DNA of 64,000 nt from Anaerolineae bacterium. GTDB taxonomy: Bacteria > Chloroflexota > Anaerolineae > Aggregatilineales > Phototrophicaceae. The stretch is taken from positions 124,001-188,000 of the forward strand of contig JAJDWK010000094.1 in NCBI GenBank assembly GCA_022825675.1, in the 5' to 3' direction. This document shows positions 1,451-10,312 of the stretch, in pieces. Under the pieces are notes generated by a model that worked only from the letters and a program-made list of their open reading frames with translations, did no database searches and was not told where the DNA came from. A program made the translations under genes and the position numbers. Every line of letters starts with the position of its first letter. Position 1 is the stretch's first letter.

Positions 1451-4400
1451 ATGACTGACAAAGACTTTCTCTTCCGCGGCGGTGTTGAGGAGTTGGACCC
1501 GGCAGTCGCCGAGCTTATCCGCCACGAGACGGCGCGCCAGCAAGAAAAGCTGATACTAATCCCGTCAGAAAGTACTGTGCCCCATGCGGTGCGTTCGGCG
1601 CTTGGCTCGGCATTTCACAATCTGTATGCCGAGGGCTATCCGCTGGAGAGCACGCGCCGCCTGCGCCAAAGCGAGCTTCTCGATTATGCGGCGCGGCTGA
1701 GCGAATATCGGCGCAATGCCGACCAGCGCTATTACAAAGGCACAGAATATGTCAACATTTTGGAGTCGCTGGCGCGGCGGCGGGCGGCGGAAGTCTTCGC
1801 CGCGAATGGCATTGCGGCGGCGGACCTCTTTGTGAATGTGCAGCCGCTTTCTGGCGCGCCGGCAAATAATGCCGTGTACAGCGCCCTGCTGGAGCATGGC
1901 GATACGGTCATGGGCATGGACCTGATTATGGGCGGGCATTTGACGCATGGCAGCCCGGTCAATCGCAGCGGCATCAATTATAAAATCGTCAGCTACACGG
2001 TGGATGCGGAAAGCGAGCGCCTCGACTATGAGCAGATGATGGCGCTGGCGCTGGAGCACAAACCCAAGCTCATCATCGGCGGTTTTTCCAGCTATCCCTT
2101 CGCGGCGGACTGGGCGAAGTATCGCAAGATTGCCGATGCTGTCGGCGCGTATTTGCTGGCTGATGTCGCCCATGTGGCGGGTTTGATCGCCGCTGGCGTC
2201 TATCCCAACCCCGTCGGCATTGCCGATGTCGTCAGCTTCACCACGCACAAGACTTTGAATGGTCCGCGCGGCGCGGTGCTCATCACCCACCGCAAAGAGC
2301 TCGCGCGAAAGCTGGACCGCGCAGTTTTCCCCGGCGAACAGGGCGGTCCCCACATCAACGCGATGGCGGGGCTGGCAATCGCGCTTAAGCTGGCGACAAG
2401 CGAGCAATTCCACGAATTACATCGTCGCAGCCTCGTGAATACGCGCCGTCTGGCGGATAGGCTGGCGAGCCACGGCTTCCGCCTGCCTCACGGCGGCAGC
2501 GACACGCACCTCTTCCTGCTGGACTGCAAGTCGGTGCAGGGCGCTGATGGCAGCGCGCTCAGCGGTGATATGGCGGCGCGCATCCTCGACCTGGCGGGCA
2601 TTGTCGTCAACCGCCAGACTATCCCCGGTGACCGCTCGGCGCTGCGTCCCAGCGGCATCCGCCTGGGCGCGACTTGGCTGACACAGCGCGGCATCACGGA
2701 AGCCGATATCGACGAACTCGGCGACATCATCGCCGAGCTGCTGCGGGCTTGCCAGCCTTTCAGCTTGACCGGGCGCATCCGTCCGCTGCCGCGCGCCAAG
2801 ATTGACTTCGATATTTTGCGCAGCGCCCGTCAACGCGCGCGCCAGCTTAGCCGCAGGTTGGGCTGTGATACCGCCGCGCCTGCCGACGGCTATCCACATT
2901 TTTACGGCGCGGAAACGACCGACGAGGAAAGCTGCCTCGAAGTCAAAGTCAGCGGCGCGGCGGCGGGCGACTTCCTGCATGTCGTGACCACCAGCGATAT
3001 CGCGGCGCTGGCGGATGGCGAGCGCCAGCCGACCCGCTTGCTGGAGCGTGACGGCGCAGAAATGGCGAGCGGCACTGTCCAGCGGATTTCAATGGAGGCC
3101 TATCGCTTGATTCTTGCCGGGCGCGCGCAACGCGCAGTCGCCTGGCTGCGGGATTTGAGCGATGGCTTTGTACGCTTTGATGACAATGACATTCATGCCA
3201 AAGCGCCAGGACCAGTCGCGGTGACGGTGCTGGGCGCGGCGGAGCCGCCAATGTTGGCGGGCAGCGCCGGCTACGATCAGAAAGCATACGGCATCGGCAT
3301 GCACACGCCGCGGGCGCTGCCGCCATCGGCAGTGGATTTGCCCCGTTTCACCGCCGAAATCGCGGCGGTTGATATGCTGCGGGAGACGCCGCTGGGCAGC
3401 TTGCACCGCGAGCTGGGGGCGAAGCTGGCGCCATTCGCCGGCTACGAGATGCCGCTGTGGTACGCCTCGGTCAGCGCGGAACATGCCGCCGCGCGCGGGG
3501 ATGCCGGCATCTTCGATGTCGCGCACATGGGTGTCTTTGAAGTTGCCGGCGCGGGAGCGGCGCAATTCCTTGACATAGTCAGCAGCAACGATGTCAAGCG
3601 CCTGCGCATCGGCAGCTCCCACTACAGCTTTCTGCTGGATGTTGATGGCATGCCATTTGACGATCTATTGATTTACCGTTTGGCGGCGGAAAGTTTTCTG
3701 CTGGTTGTCAACGCCGCCAACAACGATGTGAACTGGGCATGGCTGAATGCCGTGAAAAACGGCGAAGTTATGATTGACGCGGCGCAGCCCAGCCGCCGCA
3801 TCGAAGGCGCGAACCGCTTCCGCCTGCGTGACTTGCGGGCAGCGCAATCAGGCGCGGAGCAGCGCGTCGATATCGCCTTGCAGGGACCAAAAAGCCGTGA
3901 GTATCTGCTGGCGCTGGGCGGCAGCGATGCCGATTTGGAGGCGCTGCGGCGGCTGCGCTGGGCGGGCGTGACGCGCCTGACGCTGGGCGGCTTCGACTTG
4001 ATTGTCTCCCGCACGGGTTACACTGGCGAGCGCGTCGCGTATGAGCTATTTGCGCATCCCGAGCGGGCGGCGGCGCTCTTCCGCGCGTTGGTGGATTTGG
4101 GCGCGACGCCTTGTGGCTTGGCGGCGCGCGACAGCCTGCGCACCGAAGCTGGCTTGCCGCTCTATGGTTTTGAGCTGGCGGGCGAGCTGGGCTTGAACCC
4201 GGCGGATGCCGGTTTCGGCGCTTATGTCAAGCTCTACAAGCCCTTTTTCATCGGCAAAGCGGCGTTCATCGCGCATGAAGCGCAGCGCAAACGCCAAATC
4301 AGCCGCTTCCGCCTGGACAATCGCGGCGCCCGTCCCGCGCATTATGGCGACCCGATTGTCAACTCCCGCGGGCGCGTGGTCGGCATCGTCACCAGCTGCA

Positions 4401-4594
4401 ACATCGATAGCGGGGGCGGGCAGACCGGGCAAGCGCTTCTGGACCGCGGCTGGCGCAAGCCGGGCACGGCGCTGGCAGTATTCGCCAGCGCCGCCCGCGC
4501 CAAGCCAATCGCCCCCGCCAAGTTGCGCCTGGGGGGGCGCGCCAAGCTGCCGGAGCCGCTGACGATTATTTCACGCTTCCCGCGGCGCAAGTGA
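1451..4594 (+). CDS. Fusion protein: serine hydroxymethyltransferase (N) + degenerate GcvT-like domain (middle) + aminomethyltransferase GcvT (C)
   Basis: ORF 1403..4594; likely ATG at 1451 after 'aaggag'-like 'ataaggagtcgcc'. SHMT: 'LIPSESTVPHAVRSALGSAFHNLYAEGYP', PLP-lysine block 'SFTTHKTLNGPRGAVLI'. GcvT: 'TPLGSLHRELGAKLAPFAGYEMPLWY...DVAHMGVFEV', 'SRTGYTGERVAYELFAHPE'. No stop or frameshift between domains. Confidence 0.92.
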   Translation: MTDKDFLFRGGVEELDPAVAELIRHETARQQEKLILIPSESTVPHAVRSALGSAFHNLYAEGYPLESTRRLRQSELLDYAARLSEYRRNADQRYYKGTEYVNILESLARRRAAEVFAANGIAAADLFVNVQPLSGAPANNAVYSALLEHGDTVMGMDLIMGGHLTHGSPVNRSGINYKIVSYTVDAESERLDYEQMMALALEHKPKLIIGGFSSYPFAADWAKYRKIADAVGAYLLADVAHVAGLIAAGVYPNPVGIADVVSFTTHKTLNGPRGAVLITHRKELARKLDRAVFPGEQGGPHINAMAGLAIALKLATSEQFHELHRRSLVNTRRLADRLASHGFRLPHGGSDTHLFLLDCKSVQGADGSALSGDMAARILDLAGIVVNRQTIPGDRSALRPSGIRLGATWLTQRGITEADIDELGDIIAELLRACQPFSLTGRIRPLPRAKIDFDILRSARQRARQLSRRLGCDTAAPADGYPHFYGAETTDEESCLEVKVSGAAAGDFLHVVTTSDIAALADGERQPTRLLERDGAEMASGTVQRISMEAYRLILAGRAQRAVAWLRDLSDGFVRFDDNDIHAKAPGPVAVTVLGAAEPPMLAGSAGYDQKAYGIGMHTPRALPPSAVDLPRFTAEIAAVDMLRETPLGSLHRELGAKLAPFAGYEMPLWYASVSAEHAAARGDAGIFDVAHMGVFEVAGAGAAQFLDIVSSNDVKRLRIGSSHYSFLLDVDGMPFDDLLIYRLAAESFLLVVNAANNDVNWAWLNAVKNGEVMIDAAQPSRRIEGANRFRLRDLRAAQSGAEQRVDIALQGPKSREYLLALGGSDADLEALRRLRWAGVTRLTLGGFDLIVSRTGYTGERVAYELFAHPERAAALFRALVDLGATPCGLAARDSLRTEAGLPLYGFELAGELGLNPADAGFGAYVKLYKPFFIGKAAFIAHEAQRKRQISRFRLDNRGARPAHYGDPIVNSRGRVVGIVTSCNIDSGGGQTGQALLDRGWRKPGTALAVFASAARAKPIAPAKLRLGGRAKLPEPLTIISRFPRRK

Positions 4595-6810: not shown

Positions 6811-8298
6811 TTATCGCGGCAATGCCGGCGCGCAGCAGAGCACCAGCTCCTTCGCCGCTTTCACCTCGTCCAGGCGGCGCACGGGCGCGGTATGCGGCGC
6901 GTTGAGCAGCGTCTCCGGCTCGCGCAGCGCTTCCGCCGCAATCGCTTCCATGGCGGCGACGAAAGCGTCCAAATCTTCCTTGACCTCGGTTTCGGTCGGT
7001 TCAATCAGCAGCGCCTCGGGCACAATGAGCGGGAAATAGTTCGTCGGCGGGTGGAAGCCATAATCCATCAACCGCTTGGAAATATCAAGCGCGTGCACCG
7101 CGTCCGCGCCCTCGATATGCCCCTCCAGCACAAATTCATGCCCGCAATAGCGCGGATACGGCAGATGGTAGGTCGCCATCAGCCGCGCCCGCAGGTAATT
7201 GGCATTGAGCACGGCATAACGGGTAACATCGCGGATGCCGCTGTCGCCGTAGACGCGGATGTAGGCATAAGCGCGCAGGTGCATGCCGAAGTTGCCGTGA
7301 AAAGCTTTCAGCCGCCCGATGCTCTTCTCGGGCATGACAAAGCCGTAGAGCGGCGGCTCTTCCCCCTCTTCTTCCTCAACAATCTCAACGATGGGACCGG
7401 GCAGATACGGTGCCAGCCTGGCGTTGACGCCGACAGCGCCGCTGCCAGGTCCGCCGCCGCCATGAGGCGTGGAGAAGGTCTTGTGCAGGTTGTAGTGCAT
7501 AACATCAAAGCCGAGCGCGCCCGGTTTGACCACGCCCATCAAGGCGTTCATGTTGGCGCCATCCATGTACATCAAGCCGCCGGCGGCGTGCACCGCGTCA
7601 ATGACCTCGAGGATAGTGGATTCAAATAAGCCGAGCGTGCTGGGCACGGTAATCATCATGCCGGCGATGCGCTCGCGCAGGTCGCCCTCGCAGGCGGCGC
7701 GCAGCGCCTGCAAATCGACATTGCCCTGGCTGTCGGCGGGCAATTCATGCGCGTTTAAGCCCGCCATGGTGACGGTGGCGGGGTTGGTGCCGTGCGCGCT
7801 GTCCGGCACCAGGATGACATCACGCTGAGCATCGCCGCGGTCGAGGTGATACTGGCGGATCATCAAGATGCCGGCGAATTCGCCCTGGGCACCAGCCGCC
7901 GGGCTGAGGCTGACCGCCTTGAAGCCGCTAATTTCGCCCAGCCAGGTCTGCAATTCCCGCATCAAGTAGAGCGCGCCCTGGCAGCCGTCTTCATCGGTCA
8001 GCGGGTGCAGCTGGGCGAAGCCGGGCAGCCGCGCCGCGTCTTCGTTGATTTTCGGGTTGTATTTCATCGTGCAGGAGCCCAGCGGGTACAAACCCTGGTC
8101 GATGGAATAGTTGAGTTTGCTCAGCTTTACAAAATGGCGTACCACCTGCACTTCGCCGACTTCTGGCAGCGGCAGCGATTCTCGCAGCAGTTCCGCCGGC
8201 AGGGACGCGGCGGGCACATCGCATTCGGGCAGGTTGACGCCGATGCGCCCCGGGCTGCCGAGGTCGTAAATCAGCGGCTGCAGTTCTTCTGTCGCCAT
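6811..8298 (-). CDS. gcvPB: Glycine dehydrogenase (decarboxylating) subunit 2
   Basis: 'SCTMKYNPKINEDAARLPGFAQLHP', 'YNLHKTFSTPHGGGGPGSGAVGV' (PLP lysine). Preferred start ATG at 8298 (upstream AAGGAG); ORF extends to 8328. Confidence 0.95.
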   Translation of the reverse strand: MATEELQPLIYDLGSPGRIGVNLPECDVPAASLPAELLRESLPLPEVGEVQVVRHFVKLSKLNYSIDQGLYPLGSCTMKYNPKINEDAARLPGFAQLHPLTDEDGCQGALYLMRELQTWLGEISGFKAVSLSPAAGAQGEFAGILMIRQYHLDRGDAQRDVILVPDSAHGTNPATVTMAGLNAHELPADSQGNVDLQALRAACEGDLRERIAGMMITVPSTLGLFESTILEVIDAVHAAGGLMYMDGANMNALMGVVKPGALGFDVMHYNLHKTFSTPHGGGGPGSGAVGVNARLAPYLPGPIVEIVEEEEGEEPPLYGFVMPEKSIGRLKAFHGNFGMHLRAYAYIRVYGDSGIRDVTRYAVLNANYLRARLMATYHLPYPRYCGHEFVLEGHIEGADAVHALDISKRLMDYGFHPPTNYFPLIVPEALLIEPTETEVKEDLDAFVAAMEAIAAEALREPETLLNAPHTAPVRRLDEVKAAKELVLCCAPALPR

Positions 8299-8354
8299 CG
8301 GCGCTGTTCTCCTTTGCTCGCTCTCCATCCCATTTTAAGCGGATGAAGATGTCA

Positions 8355-9689
8355 TCATGCCAGCCCTGCCAGGGTGTCCGCCAGGCGGTCGATTTCTTCT
8401 TTGCTGTTCATCTCGGTAACGCAGAGCAGCATGTGATTTTGCAGGTGAAAATAATGCTGCCCCAGGTCATAGCCGCCGAGGATGCCTGCTTCCAGCAAGG
8501 CGGCGTTAATGTCCGCGATTGGGCGCGGGCATGCGACAGTAAATTCGTTGAAGAAGGCTTTGCTTTTGTCGACGCTGTAGCCATCGAGGCGGTCGATGCG
8601 CTCGGCGGCGTAATGGGCTTTGTGATAATTCAATTCGCCGACGCGCCGCAAGCCATTTTTGCCCATCAGCGCGAGATAGATGGAGGCAGCCAGCGCCATC
8701 AGCCCCTGGTTGGTGCAGATATTGCTGCTGGCGCGCTCGCGTTTGATGTCCTGCTCCCGCGGGCGCAGGGTCATGACATAGGCGCGTTTGCCATCGGCAT
8801 CCTGCGTTTCGCCGATGATGCGCCCGGCGATGCGCCTGACATGTTTTTTGCGCGTGGCGAAATAGCCGAGATACGGTCCGCCGAAGCCCAGGGGCACGCC
8901 CAGCGGCTGCGCCTCGCCCACGGCGATATCCGCGCCAAGCTCGCCCGGGCTCTTGAAGAGGGACAGCGCCATCGGGTTAGCGACGATGACCAGCAGCGCG
9001 CCCACTTGATGCGCGGCGGTCGCCAGCGTCGACAAGTCATCGATTTGCCCAAAAAAGTTCGGATATTGCACGGCAATCATGGCGGTATTGTCGTCCAGCA
9101 TTTCGATGAGGTCGACAATTTCGCCGCGGCCGCGGTCGCCGATGATGCGGATATCGCGCCCTTGGTGGTAAGTGCGCACTACTTCTCGATATTGCGGGTG
9201 GATCGCGTGGCTGAGGATGACTTTTTTGCGCCGGTGCCGCGACGCTTCCAGCGCCACAGTGACGGCTTCCGCCAGGCTGGTGGCACCGTCATAATGGCTG
9301 GCGTTGGCGGCGTCCATGCCCGTCAGCGCGCACATCATGCTTTGATATTCGTAAGTCGCCTGCAAGGTCCCTTGCGATATCTCGGGCTGATAGGGCGTGT
9401 AGGCGGTGTAGAATTCGCCGCGCAGCAGGATATGGTTCACGACCGAAGGGATGAAATGGTGATAGGCGCCAGCGCCGCGAAAGATGGCGAAATCGCCGCC
9501 GTGGTCATTCGCCTCGCTTATCGCCAGCATTTCGCTGGCGGCTTGCATTTCGCTCATGGGTGGCGGCAAATCCAGCGCGGGGAAGCGATGCGATGCTGGC
9601 ACCGCGTCAAAAAGCGCGTCAATAGAAGGTACGCCAATCGCCGCCAGCATTTGACGGGTATCGGCTTCGGTATGTGGGATGTAGCTCAC
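8355..9689 (-). CDS. gcvPA: Glycine dehydrogenase (decarboxylating) subunit 1
   Basis: 'SYIPHTEADTRQMLAAIGV', 'YTAYTPYQPEISQGTLQATYEYQSMMCALTGMDAANASHYDGATSLAEA'. Preferred GTG start at 9689 with upstream GAGG; ORF extends to 9743. Confidence 0.95.
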   Translation of the reverse strand: MSYIPHTEADTRQMLAAIGVPSIDALFDAVPASHRFPALDLPPPMSEMQAASEMLAISEANDHGGDFAIFRGAGAYHHFIPSVVNHILLRGEFYTAYTPYQPEISQGTLQATYEYQSMMCALTGMDAANASHYDGATSLAEAVTVALEASRHRRKKVILSHAIHPQYREVVRTYHQGRDIRIIGDRGRGEIVDLIEMLDDNTAMIAVQYPNFFGQIDDLSTLATAAHQVGALLVIVANPMALSLFKSPGELGADIAVGEAQPLGVPLGFGGPYLGYFATRKKHVRRIAGRIIGETQDADGKRAYVMTLRPREQDIKRERASSNICTNQGLMALAASIYLALMGKNGLRRVGELNYHKAHYAAERIDRLDGYSVDKSKAFFNEFTVACPRPIADINAALLEAGILGGYDLGQHYFHLQNHMLLCVTEMNSKEEIDRLADTLAGLA

Positions 9690-9727
9690 GGTTCTGTTTC
9701 CTCGCGGGAGTTCAGCAGCGGCTAAAG

Positions 9728-10120
9728 CTAGCGCCCCTGGCAATAGCTGTCATAGGCGGCGGCGTCCATCAGCGCTTCTAAGGGCGCGAGGTCATCCGCG
9801 CGGATTTTGACCATCCAGCCAGCGCCAAAGGGGTCGGCATTGACCACTTCCGGCTCGTCTTCCAGCGCGGCGTTGACGGCGACAATTTCGCCGGGCACGG
9901 CGCTATAAAGCTCCGCCGCCGCCTTGACCGATTCAACTTCGCCAAAAGAGTCGCCGGCGTCCAGGCTTTCGCCCTCTTCACGGAATTCTACATACACGAT
10001 GTCGTTAAGCTGGTCTTGCGCGTAGTCGGTTATGCCGATGGTGACGGTATCGCCTTGCACCGCAAACCATTCGTCAGATTTGGCGTATTTCAACCCGGCT
10101 GGTGTTTGCCAGTCGCCCAT
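9728..10120 (-). CDS. gcvH: Glycine cleavage system H protein
   Basis: 'GITDYAQDQLNDIVYVEF', lipoyl-lysine context 'GEVESVKAAAELYSAVPGEIVAVN'. Start ATG at 10120 with GGAG 6 nt upstream; the ORF-track start at 10213 runs into the leader. Confidence 0.95.
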   Translation of the reverse strand: MGDWQTPAGLKYAKSDEWFAVQGDTVTIGITDYAQDQLNDIVYVEFREEGESLDAGDSFGEVESVKAAAELYSAVPGEIVAVNAALEDEPEVVNADPFGAGWMVKIRADDLAPLEALMDAAAYDSYCQGR

Positions 10121-10149
10121 AGTCATCTCCTTCCCCGCAATACAAAGCA

Positions 10150-10178
10150 AGGGCGCATCCCATGCCAGAATGCGCCCT
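10150..10178 (-). terminator. Hairpin between glycine aptamer and gcvH (possible riboswitch expression platform)
   Basis: Minus-strand 'GGGCGCAT TCTGGCATGGG ATGCGCCC' followed by 'TTGCTTTGT'; strong stem, weak U-tract. Confidence 0.5.
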
Positions 10179-10204
10179 GTCAGTCCGTTGACCTTCAGAG
10201 CTTG

Positions 10205-10312
10205 CCGCCGCAAGAATCCTTTTGCCTGAGAGTTTCACGCAAGTTGGCTGGCTTGTCGCTTGCCCCTTCGGCGTTTTGTCCGCGGACAAAATCTCTCTTC
10301 TTGCAACAGCCA
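10205..10312 (-). promoter_or_regulatory. Glycine riboswitch (single aptamer) in the gcvH-gcvPA-gcvPB leader
   Basis: Minus strand reads ...AAGAAGAGAGATTTTGTCCGCGGACAAAACGCCGAAGGGGCAAGCGACAAGCC...GAAACTCTCAGGCAAAAGGATTCTTGC; contains the glycine aptamer core 'CGCCGAAGGGGCAA' and 'AACTCTCAGGCAAAAGGA' with GAGAG/CTCTC pairing. Confidence 0.93.

Follow-up and report, generated by a model that had tools for sequence, protein, structure and literature searches.

A single gene of an Anaerolineae bacterium (Chloroflexota) encodes SHMT and GcvT in one chain, the two enzymes being separated by what we read as a decayed second copy of GcvT. The fusion is predicted to be a bifunctional SHMT and T-protein, and very probably the cell has no other supply of either activity. 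GcvT forms 5,10-CH2-THF from glycine, and SHMT makes serine from 5,10-CH2-THF and glycine. A first-pass annotation had proposed that one uninterrupted frame encodes both enzymes and that the fusion joins two activities with CH2-THF in common. The frame is indeed borne out by the domain matches, the PLP lysine and the orthologues described below, and the link through CH2-THF is supported by the domain identities, the biochemistry cited being textbook knowledge. Its description of the SHMT and GcvT halves stands; it overlooked two further features, a decayed GcvT copy in the middle and a 26-residue insertion in an SHMT loop.

The fusion gene (1451..4594, forward strand) lies near the left end of the window, the 64,000-nucleotide stretch that was analysed. 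Its frame is uninterrupted from a GTG at 1403 through the stop codon at 4594. Translation probably begins at ATG 1451, which has an AGGAG about 13 nt to its 5' side at a spacing that is identical in several orthologues. In the resulting 1047-aa protein, a Pfam scan matched both SHMT (PF00464, 406.8 bits, cut-off 27) and GCV_T (PF01571, 248 bits over two stretches, cut-off 25.6) above their cut-offs. The C-terminal barrel, GCV_T_C (PF08669), gave a weak match of 19.5 bits, below the cut-off of 25.9; one relative (L110) scores 26.2. An AlphaFold model of the whole chain had a pLDDT of 79 and a pTM of 0.73. Orthologues covering both halves of the query, nearly all of them end to end, were found in 48 other records at about 50-78% identity, all bearing Chloroflexi/Chloroflexota or Anaerolineae-type bacterium names. 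Because the same architecture recurs in all these records, the gene is neither a chance frame nor a misassembly.

The SHMT domain occupies residues 1-470 (1451..2860, forward strand) and scores 425.4 bits against PRK00011 (cut-off 335). Its PLP lysine is K267 (2249-2251), within the motif FTTHKT. Among 21 orthologues, Y94, Y95, H163, D238, H241, K267 and R404 were invariant, and E61 was nearly so. Foldseek matched the AlphaFold model to the SHMT of B. stearothermophilus (1kkj) with a TM-score of 0.92 and about 43% identity. In the SHMT tree, all fused SHMTs form one clade (support 98/96). They are also marked by an insertion of about 26 residues, recognised by motif spacing, between YAEGYP and RYY (1643..1723, forward strand, approximate limits). 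Comparing only SHMTs in which both motifs were found, the distance from YAEG to RYY (or RFY) was exactly 30 residues in every fused SHMT measured, and in those of a family, f6, whose gene is divided in two (see below); it was 4 residues in every separate SHMT measured. In known SHMT structures such as the B. stearothermophilus enzyme, this active-site loop places the catalytic Glu and two Tyr residues close to PLP and folate.

The GcvT domain spans residues 641-1047 (3371..4591, forward strand), where PF01571 scores 222 bits, and includes D737/D738, RTGYTGE (R854-E860) and ARDSLRTEAG. D737/D738, RTGYTGE, R893 and D894 were invariant in the 21 orthologues. We presume that the D737/D738 pair holds the equivalent of the catalytic D97 of the E. 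coli T-protein, partly by the title of a PDB entry (ETD97N). This half falls just short of the NCBIfam naming cut-offs (282.7 versus 300 for PRK00389; 234.4 versus 235.85 for TIGR00528), and many fused relatives pass 300; the missed cut-off is a naming threshold rather than a feature that defines a GcvT enzyme.

We searched the rest of the genome for separate copies of glyA and gcvT, and neither was detected in this 95% complete draft. The fusion was the only SHMT found by family searches. The only other GCV_T protein found (L004:901-1989) is YgfZ-like, with a YgfZ signature of 76 bits (cut-off 49), and was rejected as a separate gcvT for this reason. The remaining glycine cleavage genes lie 2-6 kb downstream of the fusion gene on the opposite strand: gcvPB, glycine dehydrogenase subunit 2 (6811..8328; PRK04366, 686 bits, cut-off 441), gcvPA, glycine dehydrogenase subunit 1 (8355..9743; PRK00451, 601 bits, cut-off 364), and gcvH (9728..10213 as listed, the true start being probably near 10126; TIGR00527, 149 bits, cut-off 115.85). 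Rfam's only match within the window is a glycine riboswitch upstream of gcvH-gcvPA-gcvPB (10204..10310, reverse strand; RF00504, 58.8 bits, gathering score 32); the fusion gene itself has no such match in front of it. An Lpd gene is present on another contig. With gcvH, gcvPA, gcvPB and Lpd at hand and no other GcvT found, the glycine cleavage set is complete only if the fusion supplies the T-protein. FTHFS is also present in the genome, so GcvT is not the sole source of one-carbon units.

Alternatively, the SHMT half could have acquired an altered specificity, as another aldolase or a transaldolase, or the GcvT half could be a demethylase, the fusion serving another pathway. The divergent clade, the loop insertion, a partial fluorothreonine transaldolase match (92 bits against a cut-off of 650) and the GcvT score slightly below the NCBIfam cut-offs might point this way. 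However, these are the only SHMT and GcvT found and they stand alongside GcvH, GcvPA, GcvPB and Lpd; moreover, the catalytic residues are conserved and the canonical models far outscore the alternatives, which makes such a change very improbable. In all likelihood, judging from the sequence, both catalytic domains are active as SHMT and T-protein. In the bifunctional enzyme, GcvPA and GcvPB would load the aminomethyl group onto lipoyl-GcvH, the C-terminal T domain would free NH3 and form 5,10-CH2-THF, and the tethered SHMT would make serine from this CH2-THF and another glycine molecule, or the route would run in the reverse direction.

Between the two halves, PF01571 matched a further stretch (residues ~485-620; 2903..3310, forward strand) over model positions 49-132 with 31.6 bits. 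When aligned with full-length middle copies of relatives, this domain retains about half of GCV_T and has Ala-Ser in place of the catalytic Asp pair; it conserves the pattern WLRxLSDGY...D..D...K..GPV. Since a whole-chain Foldseek search with the fusion protein listed SHMT entries only, the middle region was modelled alone (pLDDT 75), and the top Foldseek matches listed for this model all belonged to the GcvT fold family (E ~1e-6). Longer middle copies occur in five genomes (G005, G007, G040, G048, G164) and as one copy in G159, reaching at most model positions 2-303 at 204 bits; in the alignment, most retain the Asp pair, and RTGYTGE and ARDxLR have drifted. All the long copies fall in one clade (support 100/99), placed with the fused GcvTs and on the opposite side from the separate GcvTs, and they have an insertion in common with the C-terminal GcvT copy. 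Because of this grouping and this common insertion, we read the middle domain as the probable product of a tandem GcvT duplication followed by decay. The full-length middle copy was presumably ancestral, because loss is easier than regain; the full-length forms sit inside one subclade of the SHMT tree, so several independent shrinkings would then be needed. What remains is under purifying selection, with a median dN/dS of 0.19 as compared with 0.11 for the SHMT part, 0.12 for the GcvT part and 0.24 for the linker. We infer that the middle domain plays a structural or spacer role. The fusion also shows a duplicated enzyme domain decaying to a conserved, non-catalytic part.

The linker that joins the middle domain to GcvT (3311..3370, forward strand) is variable, measuring 39-127 residues among orthologues. 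In six loci (L009, L010, L015, L037, L046 and L050) the linker of the fusion gene contains in-frame, GC-rich palindromic repeats, around locus position 7800-8150; several of them recur in the flanking DNA, and they are reminiscent of the palindromic elements found within proteins of Rickettsia. Because linker length varies and the repeats are in frame, a flexible tether is favoured over a rigid tunnel. True channelling of CH2-THF, which the first-pass annotation had put forward as a possibility, is a candidate mechanism that we consider unlikely. It would require that the middle domain and the 26-residue insertion form an interface through which CH2-THF passes from the T domain to SHMT unreleased, an arrangement of low probability: it is consistent with the fixed length of an insertion located in a loop that bears folate and active-site residues in known SHMTs, and with the purifying selection on the middle domain, but the linkers are variable and the length of the middle domain itself differs among lineages, between about 110 and 300 residues. 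It is similarly doubtful, if conceivable, that the protein is a dedicated glycine-serine channelling enzyme, in which the dead T-protein copy was recruited as a structural bridge, the SHMT insertion docks either the T domain itself or the folate of that domain, and CH2-THF is passed between the active sites. As for a looser effect, the chances are about even that the covalent linkage gives measurable coupling, which may act through a high local folate concentration.

The first-pass annotation had also suggested a search for SHMT+GcvT architectures; the fusion proved to be widespread in Chloroflexota, being present in dozens of the genomes surveyed in addition to the 48 records. An SHMT match was found in 144 of 150 genomes of the class, 66 with a canonical separate SHMT and 78 with other types only; among the matches listed, most of the non-canonical SHMTs lay in frames about 1000-1250 aa long. 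Canonical GcvT tended to accompany canonical GlyA: both were present in 54 class genomes and both absent from 75, one only being present in 12 and 3 genomes (Fisher p 6e-24, a value inflated by relatedness). Two of the three GcvT-only genomes (G046, G142) are discordant because their separate SHMT is of another type. This type, family f40 (520-537 aa; G046:C485, G112:C126, G142:C528), has its Pfam match in two pieces, which suggests another insertion type. Separate canonical copies of glyA and gcvT are absent from most fused genomes of the class, and some genomes, for example G014 and G026, carry fused and separate kinds together. The fusion also occurs in other classes of the phylum, nested in the same SHMT clade.

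In family f6, SHMT and a shortened middle domain form one gene and GcvT forms another. The two genes are overlapping adjacent frames in four genomes (G038, G108, G124, G138) and lie on different contigs in G003. Because f6 falls inside the fused group in both the SHMT and the GcvT trees, we consider it a secondary split, which shows that covalent linkage can be lost. Three f6 GcvTs were placed in the tree; the one inspected in the alignment does not have the longer portion of the insertion common to the middle and C-terminal copies. A flexible tether or co-expression fits the variable linkers and the f6 split no less well than a rigid tunnel does. The fusion may do no more than keep two independently working enzymes in equal amounts and inherited together, CH2-THF moving by free diffusion alone. 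Such an explanation, which we hold to be plausible at somewhat less than even chances, would account for linkers of such different lengths, some with palindromic repeats in frame, and for the division of the gene in f6. It is less easily reconciled with the retention of the fusion in numerous families, where the canonical separate copies have mostly been lost, with the existence of a second fusion of opposite order, in Vescimonas, or with the conservation of the middle domain and of the insertion in SHMT.

In the open-access literature, judged mostly by titles, abstracts and term counts, we found no description of an SHMT-GcvT fusion, which is weak evidence of novelty as most subscription papers were outside that scope; domain databases possibly list SHMT+GCV_T architectures for Chloroflexi. 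Whether CH2-THF is handed over between SHMT and the glycine cleavage system is a question that bears on glycine metabolism and on designed formate/CO2-to-serine pathways. The fusion, which has taken the place of both separate enzymes and has natural controls in its split and reverse-order forms, allows this question to be tested directly.

The reverse-order version is a GcvT-SHMT protein of Vescimonas fastidiosa (Bacillota; WP_212821284.1, 881 aa; L142:1492-4137, NZ_AP023416.1), the gene of which is followed by gcvH and gcvPA in a gcv operon. It is annotated only as gcvT, and automatic annotation can thus hide such fusions. Its GcvT groups with the separate GcvTs, and its SHMT has a very long branch whose exact place in the tree is unsure. 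The reverse domain order and the GcvT position indicate that it probably arose in a separate fusion event. Like the Chloroflexota protein, it joins two enzymes of the same kinds in one chain, beside gcvH and gcvPA; unlike it, it has no middle domain by Pfam and a very divergent SHMT. In some gene clusters, for example in Arthrobacter, Priestia and Pseudomonas plasmid records, glyA and gcvT occur together, bringing the two functions into similar proximity, but as separate genes. The fused SHMT shares with GlyA (PF00464) the fold, the PLP lysine, the catalytic Glu and the two Tyr residues; it differs in belonging to its own clade, in carrying the insertion in its active-site loop and in being joined to GcvT. 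Likewise, the fused GcvT has the folate-binding domain, the Asp pair and the RTGYTGE and ARDxLRxEAG motifs of GcvT (PF01571), and differs in forming its own tree group, in an insertion after NAAN, in its weak C-terminal barrel match, and in being both fused and duplicated.
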